NCBI RefSeq assembly: GCF_014048465.1
Contig: NZ_PDLY01000004.1
Coordinates: forward strand, 1 to 64,000
Length of the DNA stretch: 64,000 nt
From: Bombella mellum
GTDB taxonomy: Bacteria > Pseudomonadota > Alphaproteobacteria > Acetobacterales > Acetobacteraceae
Direction of reading: 5' to 3'
The translations under genes were made by a program, and so were the position numbers. Shown piece after piece: positions 10,593 to 59,474 of this stretch. Numbering within the stretch: position 1 is the first letter of the stretch; each line of letters opens with the position of its first letter. The notes under the pieces were generated by a model. The model saw nothing but the letters and a program-made list of their open reading frames with translations. It was not told the DNA's origin and searched no databases.

Positions 10593-10632
10593 ACGGCAGG
10601 TCAGGCTGTCCTCAACGGGACATCAGACGAAA

Positions 10633-10668
10633 AAGGGAGTGTCCAGAGACTGGACACTCCCTTTTTTT
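10633..10668 (+). terminator. Rho-independent terminator of the dapF-mtaB-ftsY-small ORF unit
   Basis: An 11-bp perfect stem GGGAGTGTCCA/TGGACACTCCC with a five-base loop is followed by seven T residues (10662-10668). An A run on the left lets it also serve the convergent lipoprotein gene on the minus strand. Confidence 0.93.
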
Positions 10669-11082: not shown

Positions 11083-11168
11083 GCGGAAAGAGACTCCTCC
11101 TTCATGGAACACCACAACCCAAGACCAGACATGATCCCGGCAAGACATTGTCTAGAATGTCAAACATG

Positions 11169-11199
11169 AAAAGGCCAGCCTACAAAAGGCTGGCCTTTT
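11169..11199 (-). terminator. Rho-independent terminator after purA
   Basis: A 12-bp perfect stem AAAAGGCCAGCC/GGCTGGCCTTTT with a seven-base loop lies 25 bp past the purA stop. The minus strand ends in a TTTT tract. It also insulates the downstream lipoprotein gene. Confidence 0.88.
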
Positions 11200-11223
11200 C
11201 AAATGCTACCTGTCGTGGATTAT

Positions 11224-23542: not shown

Positions 23543-25096
23543 TTACCGTGATCTGCTTCTGAACAGCCTCCGCCTGCGACAACCCGTCCACCTCGGGAGA
23601 ACGGACAGCACCACCACAAAAAGGGACAGGAGACAGGGCACCCAGCGTCCCAGAGTGGCAAAGAGAGTGGCCTTTCCGGGCCCCGGCAAGGGACGGACCA
23701 GCACCTGTTCCTGCCCCCAGCCCGTCCGTCCCACTTCCCGGCCATAGGCATCATAGATGGCAGAAACCCCACGGTTGTTGGCAAAGACGACCGGCAGCCC
23801 CTCTTCCACCGCTCTCATGCGGCCTGTCGCCAGATGCTGGCGTGGCCCTGCACTGTTGCCATACCAGGCGTCATTGGAGATCGTCAGCAGCCAGTCAGGC
23901 CGGTGCCCGGGAGCCACGACGCTCCCCGAGAAAACGATCTCGTAACAGACCATGGGGCCGACCCGACCGATCTGTGGCAGGTCCCACGTTTTCAGCCCCG
24001 GCCCCGGCACCACCTCAGCCGGCAGAAGATGGAAGGGCAGTATCCAGGGATCATATTCCCCGAAGGGCACAAGACGGCTCTTGTCATAGATGGCCTCGAT
24101 GTGTCCGTCCGGGGCCAGAGCCATCAGGCTGTTGTACCAGCGGTCGGCTCCCTCCGCCCGCCTGTCCGACCCCAGCAGGACCGGAGCACCGGATGCCGAC
24201 GAGGCGATGGCCTGCCGTGCCCAGCCATCTTCCTCCAGCAGACCGGGAAAGGCCGATTCGGGCCAGACGACAACAGCGGGACGCTCCGGCATCTGCTGGC
24301 GTGCCTGCCGCACGCCCTGTTCCGTCAGCTTCAGATAGGCATTGAACTGGGCCACGGCACTGTCCCGCTCCAGCACCTCCGTTTCCCGCACGTTGCCCTG
24401 CACGATGACCACGGCCGGATTGACATGTCCGGCCAGAACATCCTCGTGGCTGACCCTCCATGCACCCCAGCCGCACCAGATGATGCCACAGAGACCGACC
24501 GACATGACGGCCCGCCATCCCTGCCACAGAGCCAGGGAGGCCAGCACCAGAACGAGCGTCAGCCCGTCAACCCCTATGAGGGACGCAGGCTGGATGAGCC
24601 AGTCCCCCAGCCCTCCGATCACCTCCAGAGAGCTTCCCAGCGGGTTCCATGGAAAACCGGAAAAGTAGAACACCCGTGCCATGTCGGCCAGCGTCCACGT
24701 TCCGGCAAACAGCAGCACCCGTGGCCACCCCACAGGAACCAGCCGACACAGGACAGCCGGCACGATCAGGAGTGGTGCGATCAGCAGGGCGACACCGGGA
24801 GCGGCAAACGGGACCACCCACCAGAAATCATGCACACGTGTCAGGATGGCATTGGTCAGCCAGTACAGCCCGGCCGTGTGATACCCCATGCCGAACAGGA
24901 AACCCCACAGGGCCGCACGCCTGTGACTGGGAGCCACACACACGGCCCGATAGAACAGGCCCAGAGCCAGCGGCATGACAGGGACGATATTGAAAGGGGG
25001 CAGTGACAGTGCTGTCAAAGCCCCCAGAACCAGCATGAACATGGCACTGCGCCATCCTCCATGCTGCGGAGAAATGCACAGTGCCTTCATCACCAT
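23543..25096 (-). CDS. lnt: Apolipoprotein N-acyltransferase
   Basis: Lnt adds the third acyl chain to the N-terminal Cys of lipoproteins in the inner membrane. The 517-residue protein has several membrane segments in the first 220 residues and then a periplasmic nitrilase-like domain. The triad is visible: Glu in VVWPESAFPG, Lys in YDKSRLVPFGE and Cys in GPMVCYEIVF. A last membrane segment lies near the C-terminus. It starts 9 bp after olsB and serves the several lipoproteins in this window. Confidence 0.95.
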   Translation of the reverse strand: MVMKALCISPQHGGWRSAMFMLVLGALTALSLPPFNIVPVMPLALGLFYRAVCVAPSHRRAALWGFLFGMGYHTAGLYWLTNAILTRVHDFWWVVPFAAPGVALLIAPLLIVPAVLCRLVPVGWPRVLLFAGTWTLADMARVFYFSGFPWNPLGSSLEVIGGLGDWLIQPASLIGVDGLTLVLVLASLALWQGWRAVMSVGLCGIIWCGWGAWRVSHEDVLAGHVNPAVVIVQGNVRETEVLERDSAVAQFNAYLKLTEQGVRQARQQMPERPAVVVWPESAFPGLLEEDGWARQAIASSASGAPVLLGSDRRAEGADRWYNSLMALAPDGHIEAIYDKSRLVPFGEYDPWILPFHLLPAEVVPGPGLKTWDLPQIGRVGPMVCYEIVFSGSVVAPGHRPDWLLTISNDAWYGNSAGPRQHLATGRMRAVEEGLPVVFANNRGVSAIYDAYGREVGRTGWGQEQVLVRPLPGPGKATLFATLGRWVPCLLSLFVVVLSVLPRWTGCRRRRLFRSRSR

Positions 25097-54310: not shown

Positions 54311-55486
54311 ATGATCGCCTCCATCATGCCGAATTACAAACGCTTTGACCTCGCCTTTGATCATGGCGAAGGCCTCTGGCTCACCGGCACGGATGGACGA
54401 CGCTATCTGGACTTCGGAGCCGGGATTGCCGTCTCCTCCCTCGGGCACAGTCATCCGGCCCTCGTGAAGGCCATCACCGAACAGGCCGGGAAGGTCATCC
54501 ACGTCTCGAACCTCTATCAGGTTCCGCAGGCCAGGGCACTGGCCGACCTGCTGGTGGCGAACAGCTTTGCGGACTCCGTCCTCTTCTGCAATTCTGGAGC
54601 GGAGGCCAACGAAGGTCTCATCAAGCTGATCCGGCGTGCCCAGTACAGGAACGGCCATCCTGAACGCACCCGCATCATCTGCTTCAGCAACGCCTTCCAC
54701 GGCCGGACGCTGGCCACCATCTCCGCCACCGGGAACCCGGCCTATCTTGAAGGGTTCGGCACGCCCGTGGATGGCTTCGACCATGTGCCCTTCAACGACA
54801 TCGACGCCGTGCGGGCCGCCGTGACGGACCAGACGGCCGGCATCCTGCTGGAACCCGTACAGGGGGAAAGCGGCATCCGGGCGGCGCATCATGAGTTCCT
54901 CCGTCAGCTCCGTGCCCTGTGTGATGAGAAAGGTCTGTATCTCGGCATTGACGAGGTGCAGAGCGGCATGGGCCGCACGGGCACCCTCTTCGCCTTCGAG
55001 CAGGCCGGAATCACGCCGGATGTCGTCTCCTCCGCCAAGGGCATCGGGGGCGGCTTCCCGCTGGGAGCGGTACTGGCCCGTGAAGAGCTGGCCAGACACC
55101 TCACGCCCGGCACGCATGGCACGACCTATGGCGGCAATCCCCTGGCCTGTGCCGCCGGTCTGGCCGTGGTGAAAGAAATACTGGCCCCCGGCTTTCTGGA
55201 CCATGTCCGCAGGACCGGCCAGGCCTTTGGAGAGATGCTCCAGAAATGCGTGACGGACCATCCCGCCATCTTTGAGGAAGCCCGTGGTGTCGGGCTGATG
55301 CGGGGCCTGCGCTGCCGCATCCCCGCCGGTGATGTTCTTGCCGCCGTCATGGCCGAGGGCCTGCTGGCCATCGGTGCAGGCGACAACGTGCTGCGCCTGG
55401 TGCCGCCCCTCATCGCAACCGAGGCTGACTGTCAGGAAGCCTGCACCCGCATCGGGCGTGCCGCTCACGCCCTTGCCAACAAGTAA
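54311..55486 (+). CDS. argD: Acetylornithine aminotransferase
   Basis: ArgD is a PLP class III aminotransferase of arginine synthesis, often also active on succinyldiaminopimelate. The 391-residue protein has YLDFGAGIAVSSLGHSHPALV, NSGAEANEGLIKL, AFHGRTLATIS, GIDEVQSGMGRTGTLFAFEQ and the PLP Lys in VVSSAKGIGGGFPLGA. Start is uncertain (54275, 54311 or 54326). It is followed by argF after 12 bp. Confidence 0.94.
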   Translation: MIASIMPNYKRFDLAFDHGEGLWLTGTDGRRYLDFGAGIAVSSLGHSHPALVKAITEQAGKVIHVSNLYQVPQARALADLLVANSFADSVLFCNSGAEANEGLIKLIRRAQYRNGHPERTRIICFSNAFHGRTLATISATGNPAYLEGFGTPVDGFDHVPFNDIDAVRAAVTDQTAGILLEPVQGESGIRAAHHEFLRQLRALCDEKGLYLGIDEVQSGMGRTGTLFAFEQAGITPDVVSSAKGIGGGFPLGAVLAREELARHLTPGTHGTTYGGNPLACAAGLAVVKEILAPGFLDHVRRTGQAFGEMLQKCVTDHPAIFEEARGVGLMRGLRCRIPAGDVLAAVMAEGLLAIGAGDNVLRLVPPLIATEADCQEACTRIGRAAHALANK

Positions 55487-55498
55487 GGAGACCCGTGC

Positions 55499-56467
55499 AT
55501 GGGCACCAGCAACGCCTCATCGCCCCGTCACTTCCTTGACATCAAGGACCACTCCACCGAGACGCTGCGGCACATCCTCTCGCTTGCCGCCCGGGTCAAG
55601 GCCCTCCAGCAGGGGCGCAGGCACCCGCTCTGCCCCGGCCTGCCGCTGGCCGGCCGTGCGCTCGGGCTGATGATGTCCCGCCCCTCCACACGCACCCGCG
55701 TGTCCTTCGAGGTCGGCATGAAGCAGCTTGGCGGGACCGTCAACGTGCTGACCCCGTCAGAGATGCAGCTGGGCCGTGGCGAGAGCATCGCCGACACGGC
55801 CCGGGTCCTGTCCCGCTTTCTGGACGTCATCACCCTGCGGACGGGTACGGACGCAAACCTGCGGGAACTCGCCCGCTGGAGCAGCGTCCCCGTCATCAAC
55901 GGGCTGACACCCATCTCCCACCCCGTCCAGATTCTGGCCGACATCCTCACCTTCGAGGAGCATCGTGGCCCGATCACCGGCAGGAAACTGGCCTGGATCG
56001 GTGACGGCAACAATGTCGCCACCTCCCTGATCGAGGCGGCGGCCCGTCTCGGCTTCACCCTCCATCTGGCCACGCCGAAAGGGGAATTCATCCCCTCCGA
56101 GGTCGCCGTAGACTGGGCACGCGGGAATGGCGGTGACATCCACCTGACCCACGACCCCAGGGAAGCTGCGGAAGGAGCCGATGCCATCATCACGGACACA
56201 TGGGTCAGCATGGGGGACAAGGATGCGGAAAAACGCCTCAAAATCTTCCGCCCCTACCATGTGGATGAGGCCATCATGGCCCTTGCCGCACCGGATGCCC
56301 TGTTCATGCACTGCCTGCCTGCCCATATAGGGGAGGAAGTCAGCGAGGCCGTTTTTGAAAGCCCGGCCTCCGTCGTGTTCGATGAAGCAGAAAACCGCCT
56401 GCATGCCCAGAAGGGACTTCTGCTCTGGTGTCTGGAGAAAGACGATCTTTCAGCCTATCAGAGCTGA
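55499..56467 (+). CDS. argF: Ornithine carbamoyltransferase
   Basis: ArgF makes citrulline from ornithine and carbamoyl phosphate. The 322-residue protein has the carbamoyl-phosphate loop SRPSTRTRVSFEVGM, HPVQILADILTFEEHRG and the ornithine motif LFMHCLPAHIGEEV. It starts after TAAGGAG, so it is coupled to argD. A 17-bp perfect inverted repeat lies just after its stop, before hslO. Confidence 0.96.
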   Translation: MGTSNASSPRHFLDIKDHSTETLRHILSLAARVKALQQGRRHPLCPGLPLAGRALGLMMSRPSTRTRVSFEVGMKQLGGTVNVLTPSEMQLGRGESIADTARVLSRFLDVITLRTGTDANLRELARWSSVPVINGLTPISHPVQILADILTFEEHRGPITGRKLAWIGDGNNVATSLIEAAARLGFTLHLATPKGEFIPSEVAVDWARGNGGDIHLTHDPREAAEGADAIITDTWVSMGDKDAEKRLKIFRPYHVDEAIMALAAPDALFMHCLPAHIGEEVSEAVFESPASVVFDEAENRLHAQKGLLLWCLEKDDLSAYQS

Positions 56468-56474
56468 ATTCTGA

Positions 56475-56534
56475 CCTGTCTTCCATCCTGATCCTCCTCC
56501 CGCACGGGGGGAAACGTTCAGGATGGAAGACAGG
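56475..56534 (+). repeat. 17-bp perfect inverted repeat between argF and hslO
   Basis: CCTGTCTTCCATCCTGA (56475-56491) and its exact reverse complement (56518-56534) flank a 26-nt loop holding a smaller G/C hairpin. It begins 8 bp after the argF stop and ends 22 bp before the preferred hslO ATG. No T-run follows, so it is not a standard intrinsic terminator. As RNA it would be very stable and could stabilise the argF end or control hslO translation. Confidence 0.8.
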
Positions 56535-56555
56535 ACAGGCCGGACAGAGAGGATT

Positions 56556-57542
56556 ATGACCCCGGTGACAGAAACCACGCCCTCCACGGAAGCCAGACGC
56601 CCGCATGACGTGCCTGACCTCACGGTCGCCCATGCCATCACGCCCTTCCATCTTGGCCATGTTCCCGTCCGGGGACGGCTGATCACGCTCGGCCCGCTGG
56701 CCGGTGCCATCCTCTCCCGTCACGACGGGCTGCCGGAGCCGGTCCGCCTCCTTGGCGGGCAGGCCCTCGCCCTCGTGGCCGCCATGGCGACCGCCCTCAA
56801 GTTCAAAGGGTCCTTCTCCCTTCAAGTAAAAGGGGATGGGCCGGTCTCCCTCTTTCTGGCGGACTGCACCGATACGGGCGAGCTGCGCTTCACGGCCCGC
56901 ATGGCCGAGGATCACCCCACCCCCCTGCCGGACGATGCCCCCGGCCTTCTGGGCAAGGGCTACATGGCCTTCACCGTGGACCAGGGACCGAACACGGAAC
57001 TGTATCAGGGAATTGTCGGGCTGGAGGGCAAGGACCTCTCCGAAATGGCCGTCCATTACTTCCAGACCAGTGAACAGCATGACTGCGCCATCCATCTCTT
57101 TTCCCGCCATACGGAAGCGGGATGGCAGGCCGGTGCCCTCGTGCTGGAACGCCTGCCGGACAGCACGCCCCTGGTCGACAATGACGACCAGAAACATGCC
57201 GAGGCCACCATCCAGGACCTGTGGGAGACGGCCCGCACCTTCGGTCAGACCCTGGCGGCTGACGAGCTGTTCGACCCGTCCATTTCCCCCGCCACGCTCA
57301 TCACCCGGCTTTTCGGGACGCTGGGCGTGGAGCTGGCCCCCGCCAGACCGCTCTCCTTCGGCTGCCGGTGCAGCCGGACACGCCTCCAGAGCGTGCTGGA
57401 ACGCTTCAGCCGGGATGACCTCGACCACATGGCCCAGGATGGCGTGATCTCCATGGAATGCCACTTCTGCAACACGGCCTTCACGTTCGACCGTGACAGC
57501 CTACCTGCGGGCCGGGCTGAAGGCACCGCCGGACCGTCATGA
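56556..57542 (+). CDS. hslO: Redox-regulated chaperone Hsp33
   Basis: Hsp33 is a holdase switched on by oxidation when its four zinc cysteines form disulfides. The 328-residue protein has the Hsp33 fold and the C-terminal CxC...CxxC pair (GCRCSRTRL and ECHFCNTAF). The ATG at 56556 has GAGAGGA upstream; the ATG at 56523 lies inside the right arm of a large hairpin and is less likely. It follows argF, a usual alphaproteobacterial order, and overlaps the next gene by 4 bp. Confidence 0.92.
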   Translation: MTPVTETTPSTEARRPHDVPDLTVAHAITPFHLGHVPVRGRLITLGPLAGAILSRHDGLPEPVRLLGGQALALVAAMATALKFKGSFSLQVKGDGPVSLFLADCTDTGELRFTARMAEDHPTPLPDDAPGLLGKGYMAFTVDQGPNTELYQGIVGLEGKDLSEMAVHYFQTSEQHDCAIHLFSRHTEAGWQAGALVLERLPDSTPLVDNDDQKHAEATIQDLWETARTFGQTLAADELFDPSISPATLITRLFGTLGVELAPARPLSFGCRCSRTRLQSVLERFSRDDLDHMAQDGVISMECHFCNTAFTFDRDSLPAGRAEGTAGPS

Positions 57543-58633
57543 CGGTCGGACTTCCCCCCTCCCTTCACAGGGGCGGGCAGCCGCTGACACGGCTCTATCC
57601 CGGCTGGCAGGCCAGCGCACGCTATCGTGCCCCTGCGGACGGGCTGGACGTCCTGAGCCTCCACCATACGGAAACCGGGCAGGAAGCCTGCTGGTGGCTG
57701 TCCTCCGATGATGAGATTCTGGCCTGCCACGCCCTTGCGCTGGACAGCCACTGGAACGGGCAGATCATGGAGGCCATCGGCCCTGCCCTCCAGCAGTTCT
57801 GCGCAGCCCTGCTGAGCGGTGAGACACCCCTGCCGGATGACGGCACAGGGCTGCATGACTCTCTGGTCCCCCTGACCAGCCTGCCGTCCGTCGCCCAGTT
57901 CCAGCTTCTGGGCCTCTGGTTCCAGGCGGCTGTCGGCACCAGGCTGCGCCTCCTGTCCCCCGCCTCCCTGCCGGATGACGACGGGATACGGCCGGACACC
58001 CCCACCGCCCCGTTCGCACCGGGACGCCTCAGGCACCTGCTCGACACCCAGCCCGTCGGCCCGCACACCATGACCACCTCTCCCTTCAGCGGGCGTATGC
58101 TGCGGGCCGAACTGACCATGCCGACAGAGAAAGGTGTGGCCTGCCGTTTCAGCGATGAAGAAGACGGGCAGACCTTCTATCTCTTCTGGTATACCCCCAC
58201 GGGCCGGAAGGCCCCTCCAAAGGACCGGAAACCCCTCTTCTATCACCCTGCGACACGGCTCCTGCTGGGAGACAGCCCTTTCCTCCCGCTCGTGCCGGTC
58301 TTCCTGCTGTCATGGTTCATCAGCAATCCGCACTGCGTGGAGGAACTGAGACACGCCCATCCCTTCCGTCTGGAAGATTACGGCGTGGGCCGGGCCTCCG
58401 CCCTGTGGGAAGAATTCATCCCGGCCACCCCCGCACCGGCTGCTGAAAAGCAGGAAGAGGCTGGACAAAACCGAACATCTTTTCCATTTTCATCTGAACT
58501 CTGGGTGCGGTCTTCCATCTTCAGGGCCGGTCAGGCGGCTGGCCTGCCGGGCAGGGAACGCTGGAAGAAATCCCCTCCGCAGAATCACGAAAAGACAACA
58601 GATGCCGGACATGAAAACCATGACGAATCATAG
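57539..58633 (+). CDS. Conserved-looking hypothetical protein coupled to hslO
   Basis: The 364-residue protein begins in an ATGA overlap with hslO. It shows no signal peptide and only one mildly hydrophobic stretch (PFLPLVPVFLLSWF, about 255-268). The first 300 residues look folded; the last 60 are Lys/Pro/Glu-rich and disordered, and overlap the next frame. I recognise no family. Coupling to hslO suggests a role in stress or with the lipoprotein downstream, but that is only context. Confidence 0.7.
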   Translation: MTVGLPPSLHRGGQPLTRLYPGWQASARYRAPADGLDVLSLHHTETGQEACWWLSSDDEILACHALALDSHWNGQIMEAIGPALQQFCAALLSGETPLPDDGTGLHDSLVPLTSLPSVAQFQLLGLWFQAAVGTRLRLLSPASLPDDDGIRPDTPTAPFAPGRLRHLLDTQPVGPHTMTTSPFSGRMLRAELTMPTEKGVACRFSDEEDGQTFYLFWYTPTGRKAPPKDRKPLFYHPATRLLLGDSPFLPLVPVFLLSWFISNPHCVEELRHAHPFRLEDYGVGRASALWEEFIPATPAPAAEKQEEAGQNRTSFPFSSELWVRSSIFRAGQAAGLPGRERWKKSPPQNHEKTTDAGHENHDES

Positions 58634-59474
58634 TGCCAGAAGGCCCCATCTGGTCAGCCGCATGAAGCTGCGTCCCTCTGTCTCCATCCTGGGGCTGTTC
58701 TGCGGGCTTTCCCTGCTGGCCGGCTGTGCCTCCGGAGGCTCCAGCGAGGAAAAATTTCCCGCACCGGACTACAGCTACCTTCCGCCGCTCAACCTGAATG
58801 TTGCCCAGGTTGACGTGAGCAACCAGGCCCGCCCGGATGGTGATGACCTGTCATCCAGCAGCCCGACCAACCCGGCCGACACGCTGGCCCTGATGGGGCA
58901 CCAGCGTCTCCATGCCACGGGGTCCTCCGGGACGGCCAACCTCGCCATCACGAAAATCGAGATGACCAAGGCTCCCCACCACGCCCTCAGCGGGAGCTAC
59001 ACGGTCCAGCTGCACGTGGATGACGTGACGCACAACCATCATGGCTTCATCACGGCCCATGTCCAGCGCACGATTGATGCCCCCGGCAAGCTGGGGCTGG
59101 AGCACAATCTCCATACCCTCAATGCGCAGCTGATGGACGACATGAATGTCGAGCTGGAATATCAGGTCCGCAGTCATCTTTCCTCCTGGCTGACGGATGC
59201 CACCGGCACCCCGCTCAACGCCACGACCATCCAGAGCCAGGACCTGGGCGGCACGGACCTTCCCGCTCCGGGTGCGGCCGGTACCCAGCCGATGGCCGGA
59301 ACTGTCCTGACCGGGGCGACCGCAACGGCAGCCCGGCCCGTGAGTAATGCCGCCGGGGCGGCAAGTACAGCCACAAGTAACTGGCCAAGGCAGACCGATA
59401 CAGGCATGGACCAAACAGCCCCTGCCACCCGTATCCACTCTCCGCCCCCGGGTATGCTGACCCTCCCCCAGTAA
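58602..59474 (+). CDS. Lipoprotein of unknown function downstream of hslO
   Basis: A 290-residue frame (starts at 58602, 58611, 58620 or 58662 are possible) with a lipoprotein signal and lipobox LLAGC; the version from 58662 gives the cleanest signal. The mature part has a folded centre (LAITKIEMTKAPHHALSGSYTVQLHVDD) and an Ala/Thr/Pro-rich disordered tail. I recognise no family. Its 5' end overlaps the previous gene by up to 32 bp. A terminator follows. Confidence 0.72.
   Translation: MPDMKTMTNHSARRPHLVSRMKLRPSVSILGLFCGLSLLAGCASGGSSEEKFPAPDYSYLPPLNLNVAQVDVSNQARPDGDDLSSSSPTNPADTLALMGHQRLHATGSSGTANLAITKIEMTKAPHHALSGSYTVQLHVDDVTHNHHGFITAHVQRTIDAPGKLGLEHNLHTLNAQLMDDMNVELEYQVRSHLSSWLTDATGTPLNATTIQSQDLGGTDLPAPGAAGTQPMAGTVLTGATATAARPVSNAAGAASTATSNWPRQTDTGMDQTAPATRIHSPPPGMLTLPQ

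Follow-up and report, generated by a model that had tools for sequence, protein, structure and literature searches.

Why should the short spacer between argF and hslO in Bombella mellum, a bee-associated acetic acid bacterium, be given over largely to a single hairpin? An inverted-repeat search of the window (the whole stretch of 64,000 nucleotides analysed here) finds a 17-bp perfect inverted repeat whose arms on the plus strand, 56475-56491 (CCTGTCTTCCATCCTGA) and 56518-56534, stand 26 nt apart; extended to 21 nt each (56471-56491 and 56518-56538), they are 95% complementary. RNA folding adds an inner hairpin on the same strand (56495-56512; stem 56495-56501 with 56506-56512, GCAC loop), and the centroid fold has 17 contiguous pairs, 3 outer pairs beyond one mismatch, and the inner pairs on top, the whole taking up most of the 88-nt spacer. 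The minimum free energy of the region 56440-56560 is -57.7 kcal/mol, whereas 200 dinucleotide shuffles average -35.6 (sd 3.8; z -5.9) and none folds as low; in six second-order Markov shuffles of the window the longest perfect stem, with loops of 3-40, does not exceed 12 bp. The original prediction had placed the repeat with its inner hairpin at 56475-56534, the exact coordinates, and had described a stem lacking a U-tract, correctly: no T-run lies directly 3' of the stem, where the tail reads ACAGGCCGGACA. The spacer has no sigma-70-type promoter-like match.

The hairpin sits in a co-directional run on the plus strand, made up of a class III aminotransferase gene that is argD-like and that we take to be argD (54311..55486; Pfam Aminotran_3, E 3.8e-110; start from a home-made gene caller), argF for ornithine carbamoyltransferase (55499..56467; an ORF matching Pfam OTCace and OTCace_N), hslO for Hsp33 (56556..57542; Pfam HSP33, E 1.1e-57), and two more ORFs, each overlapping its predecessor. 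The spacings are 12 nt between argD and argF, 88 nt between argF and hslO, and then a 4-nt overlap; from spacing and direction we infer that the argD-like gene, argF and hslO are co-transcribed. For the two ORFs 3' of hslO (57539-59474), Pfam gives no match at E 0.001. From the end of the argF stop (56467) it is 7 nt to the 5' arm, the stem runs from 56475 (56471 with one mismatch) to 56534 (56538), and a Shine-Dalgarno-like AGAGAGGA follows at 56546-56553 on the plus strand, outside the 17-bp stem, so that the stem fits between two ribosome sites.

Where hslO starts matters here, since an in-frame ATG at 56523 does lie within the 3' arm, the overlap with an alternative start that had been foreseen. 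The true start is likely ATG 56556, behind AGAGAGGA, as the Bombella spacers suggest: of the 11 genomes of the genus (G000 to G010), seven have GAGAGGA or GAGAGAA where the Shine-Dalgarno lies, and eight have the residues PVTET, read from the DNA, shortly after the 56556 start. By eye, an ATG occurs at or near this place in G000, G001, G002, G005 and G007-G010; G003 may use GTG instead, and no ATG stands directly at this point in G004 or G006. The upstream ATG fares differently in G007 and G008, the closest relatives with a comparable stem, because by eye its reading frame in G007 ends at a stop codon that overlaps the start of hslO, and in G008 the ATG is missing; we therefore reject 56523 as an alternative start.

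What might such a stem do? Our best explanation, held with about as much belief as doubt, is that it is a functional intercistronic mRNA element of the puf/malEF type, which would protect the argD-argF message and separate the translation of argF from that of hslO. The absence of a U-tract leads us to expect read-through into hslO. The stem would then stop exonucleases that travel 3'-to-5', and once the hslO part had been cleaved the argD-argF message would survive for longer. Since there is room for it from the argF stop to the hslO Shine-Dalgarno, the stem could also insulate initiation at hslO from the translation of argF. On balance, a single transcript would yield more ArgF than Hsp33. 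This explanation starts from the position of the stem, its strength, the missing U-tract and a pairing that is kept under changed sequence in the closest relatives; it also fits the transcript-stabilising element that was one of the roles first proposed.

Stem-loops such as those of puf and malEF are known for their part in the decay of the messages that carry them. The REP between malE and malF of E. coli is likewise an intercistronic inverted repeat, thought to protect the upstream mRNA. Like elements of this type, the argF-hslO hairpin is a stable stem between close co-directional genes with no U-tract, and its anatomy (a strong stem without a T-run, after the stop of the first genes and before a free ribosome site) fits a decay-linked hairpin. 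An intrinsic (Rho-independent) terminator would likewise present a strong hairpin after a stop codon, but with the U-tract that this stem lacks. PMC5927463 links intercistronic hairpins to differential mRNA decay and cites operons including pufBALMX and malEFG. A close parallel is the stem-loop between pufBA and pufLMX of Rhodobacter capsulatus, an mRNA decay terminator that is likewise alphaproteobacterial, intercistronic and within an operon; the genes differ, and a role at argF-hslO is suggested by analogy. PMC5927463 also describes the 5'-protective hairpin of E. coli papBA, likewise intercistronic and shaping differential decay; there RNase E cuts on the upstream side of the hairpin, and it is the downstream message that is then protected. 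We found no literature on argF-hslO in Acetobacter, and no title on Bombella transcript mapping among the matches listed. Taken by itself, the argF-hslO hairpin fits an ordinary operon element of a known kind rather than a new kind of switch.

How unusual is it within its own genome? Our sample comprised 384 kb, the window plus 320 kb, or 18.5% of 2,070,045 bases, in which a simple home-made caller based on codon usage predicted the genes. Among 132 co-directional spacers of 30-500 nt, the argF-hslO spacer has the lowest 75-nt folding energy (-49.4 kcal/mol, z -6.5); ranked by z-score, it comes third overall and second among the 76 with lengths of 40-150 nt. A z below -3 is reached by 11 of these 76, among them some ordinary terminators with a T-run, and the argF-hslO spacer is thus extreme, but not alone. 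Across the sample, z falls below -3 in 14 of 24 convergent, 25 of 132 co-directional and 4 of 41 divergent spacers; convergent spacers are the most structured class, as expected for terminators.

The original prediction named two findings that would count against it, the first being that the arm is a common intergenic repeat; it is not. The arm occurs exactly only at its own two sites in the whole genome, where no other copy has 0 or 1 mismatch and six sites have two, a clear difference from the malEF REP, REPs being dispersed repeats. Counting its own two, the arm has 43 sites in the genome at up to 3 mismatches, where a reversed control has 8; in 200 kb it has 6, again with its own two, where 12 letter-shuffled arms have 0-2. 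We discount this excess over shuffled arms because real 17-mers of the sample behave alike: the arm has 6 other near-sites there, and at least 6 other sites are also found for 27% of 150 coding and 14% of 150 intergenic 17-mers. With its near-match number within the range of real 17-mers, we reject a dispersed repeat of REP or MITE kind.

The genus tells us more. hslO is present in all 11 Bombella genomes with argF directly upstream in each, and the comparison that supplied these spacers covered 30 loci; z per genome was taken from 300 dinucleotide shuffles of the spacer. A hairpin stands at the argF-hslO place in 7 of the 11 genomes (z -6.2 in G000, -3.2 in G008, -3.3 in G007, -1.9 in G004, -3.1 in G002, -2.3 in G001 and -3.8 in G003), with z below -3 in five of these seven; the weak folds of G004 and G001 are matched by 12 and 7 of their 300 shuffles, and the seven are not independent, since G001, G002 and G004 are nearly identical at the spacer. 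The metagenome-assembled G006 has an unrelated hairpin in a longer spacer (z -2.5). The second finding named against the original prediction, no conservation of structure in close relatives, thus holds only in part: a fold is kept in most, but G005 (z 0.2), G009 (-0.3) and G010 (-0.2) fold no better than shuffles, and the element is therefore not needed in all. The seven hairpin genomes share the flank GGCC(G/C)GA(C/A)AGAGAG and differ in the sequence of the stem. In the three closest, G000, G007 and G008, to which pair counts were confined, 43 of 48 pair cells hold a standard pair, and in 5 of 16 pairs both sides have changed; 4 of 500 shuffles reach the covariation score. The covariation called for at the outset is present to this extent, but in three sequences, and a slide of -1 likewise gives 5 both-side changes, though with only 54% of cells paired; we read it as support, not proof, for a kept fold. 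A nine-row alignment (A1), leaving aside G006 and also G010, whose spacer is identical to that of G009, was not used for pair counts because it forces unrelated stems together; A3 is a separate alignment of four genomes.

Beyond Bombella, we assembled 25 loci from other Acetobacteraceae genera (21, plus 4 from an earlier comparison), and argF lies close upstream of hslO in 20. Three of these overlap or abut and have no spacer (L012, L087, L096). By eye, strong spacer hairpins of other sequence occur in 7 of the 20, from three genera (L081, L082, L083, L085, L088, L090, L091), and no evident strong hairpin is seen in the remaining 10.

A fold kept while its sequence changes is what a role in decay or decoupling predicts, and it can also be produced by template-switch mutation. 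Could the stem be mainly a mutational product, with template switching copying arm onto arm and thereby making and correcting long inverted repeats in a little-constrained spacer? The sequence of the stem is replaced from clade to clade but that of the outer flank is not, and the three Bombella genomes without a fold beyond chance agree with such an origin; PMC8794818 treats template-switch mutation as a source of RNA hairpins and proposes that it can make paired changes. Against this, 7 of 11 Bombella genomes again have a hairpin after the stop and before the Shine-Dalgarno, and in 7 of the 20 loci of other genera the same spacer, by eye, holds hairpins of unrelated sequence. We regard a mainly mutational stem as a possible, if rather unlikely, account, and template switching may lie behind some of the stem's perfection.

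A partial transcription terminator or attenuator, lowering hslO transcription relative to argF, strikes us as decidedly unlikely. The very stable stem directly after a stop codon is what it would call for, but by a script criterion 10 of the 23 perfect stems of at least 12 bp in the sample carry TTTT or AAAA at the outer end, and the argF-hslO stem has no such run. With no T-run 3' of the stem, an intrinsic terminator is disfavoured. A terminator scan over the spacer also reported nothing, although it could not have scored the whole stem, because it allows loops of 3-8 only. Elsewhere in the window, two long perfect stems, of 17 and 15 bp, at 10630-10666 and 11167-11201 are flanked on the outside by A/T-runs and resemble ordinary bidirectional terminators.

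Processing of the argF-hslO message by RNase III, one of the roles first suggested, would need about 20 bp or more of duplex. The B. mellum stem has 17 contiguous pairs, about 20 when the 3 outer pairs across one mismatch are counted, and inner pairs on top, but the stems of relatives are shorter or interrupted, so that double-strand length is not kept. Such a site is possible but for that reason weakly supported, and we consider it very unlikely. A stress switch tuning Hsp33 synthesis, for instance by exposing the in-frame ATG 56523 in the 3' arm, is barely credible, since that ATG is not kept in frame in G007 and G008, the 17-bp stem ends before the Shine-Dalgarno, and all 9 weak Rfam matches in 55500-57600 fall below the gathering score; the tuning of Hsp33 under stress that had been proposed is thus unsupported by anything we found. 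Those matches, 5 of them at the hairpin, belong to microRNA and snoRNA families, and we reject a known Rfam RNA family for it. Even pooled, the terminator, RNase III and stress-switch roles stay on the unlikely side.

Returning to the decay and decoupling element, is argF-hslO one of a kind? We followed four control spacers, picked from strong short ones, through the genus, and by eye one of the four shows a similar pattern. This spacer (C1_153390; L109:13390-13468, or G000:C1:253390-253468) has a U-less hairpin before an Asp-Al_Ex permease gene (Pfam), and long hairpins of differing sequence are seen by eye in 8 of 10 gene-bearing Bombella genomes, counting one of the two gene copies of G003; in G005 and G010 the place holds a short stem with a T-run. 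The spacer between what are presumably nrdA and nrdB gave a mixed result, and C5_6454 is a different, sequence-conserved element. More speculatively, hairpins lacking a U-tract might form a class of intercistronic elements in Bombella operons: each would stay in place while its sequence is replaced from species to species, paired changes arising by template switching and selection acting only to keep the fold, so that any stable stem would serve as a generic decay barrier or translation decoupler. This is tentative, and we think it unlikely to hold as a whole. If our reading of the argF-hslO hairpin is right, it would offer a small, clean case of constraint on fold without constraint on sequence, on which to test how hairpins arise and persist (template switching versus selection) and in what way a run of arginine genes on one transcript could give proteins at different levels.

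The remaining control, between genes that we take to be ybeX and lnt, is probably no spacer: its hairpin seems to lie inside the lnt coding region, whose start the home-made caller appears to have miscalled. On the minus strand of the window at 25043-25085, a stem of GGCACTGTGC with GCGCAGTGCC is possible and, by eye, kept in several Bombella species; it probably lies in the 5' end of the lnt coding region and may simply follow conserved protein sequence.

The control C5_6454 (L114:6454-6531, or G000:C5:106454-106531; also L129-L139) lies upstream of a CNNM/CorC-type transporter gene (Pfam CNNM, CorC_HlyC, CBS). No Rfam match reaches the gathering score in the 3 of 11 loci searched, and we found no literature on a Shine-Dalgarno hairpin riboswitch of CNNM. 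The motif TCAGGGCAGG(A/G)T is kept in 11 of 11 Bombella genomes and forms the 3' strand of a hairpin covering the likely Shine-Dalgarno of this gene, with a loop, CTTGT, that is invariant in 10 aligned rows and an inner stem that varies. It is a possible cis-regulatory RNA of a metal transporter, and a covariance model run on a 249-genome family sample recovered it in 6 of 6 Bombella genomes and, weakly, in one other (E 4.8e-4).
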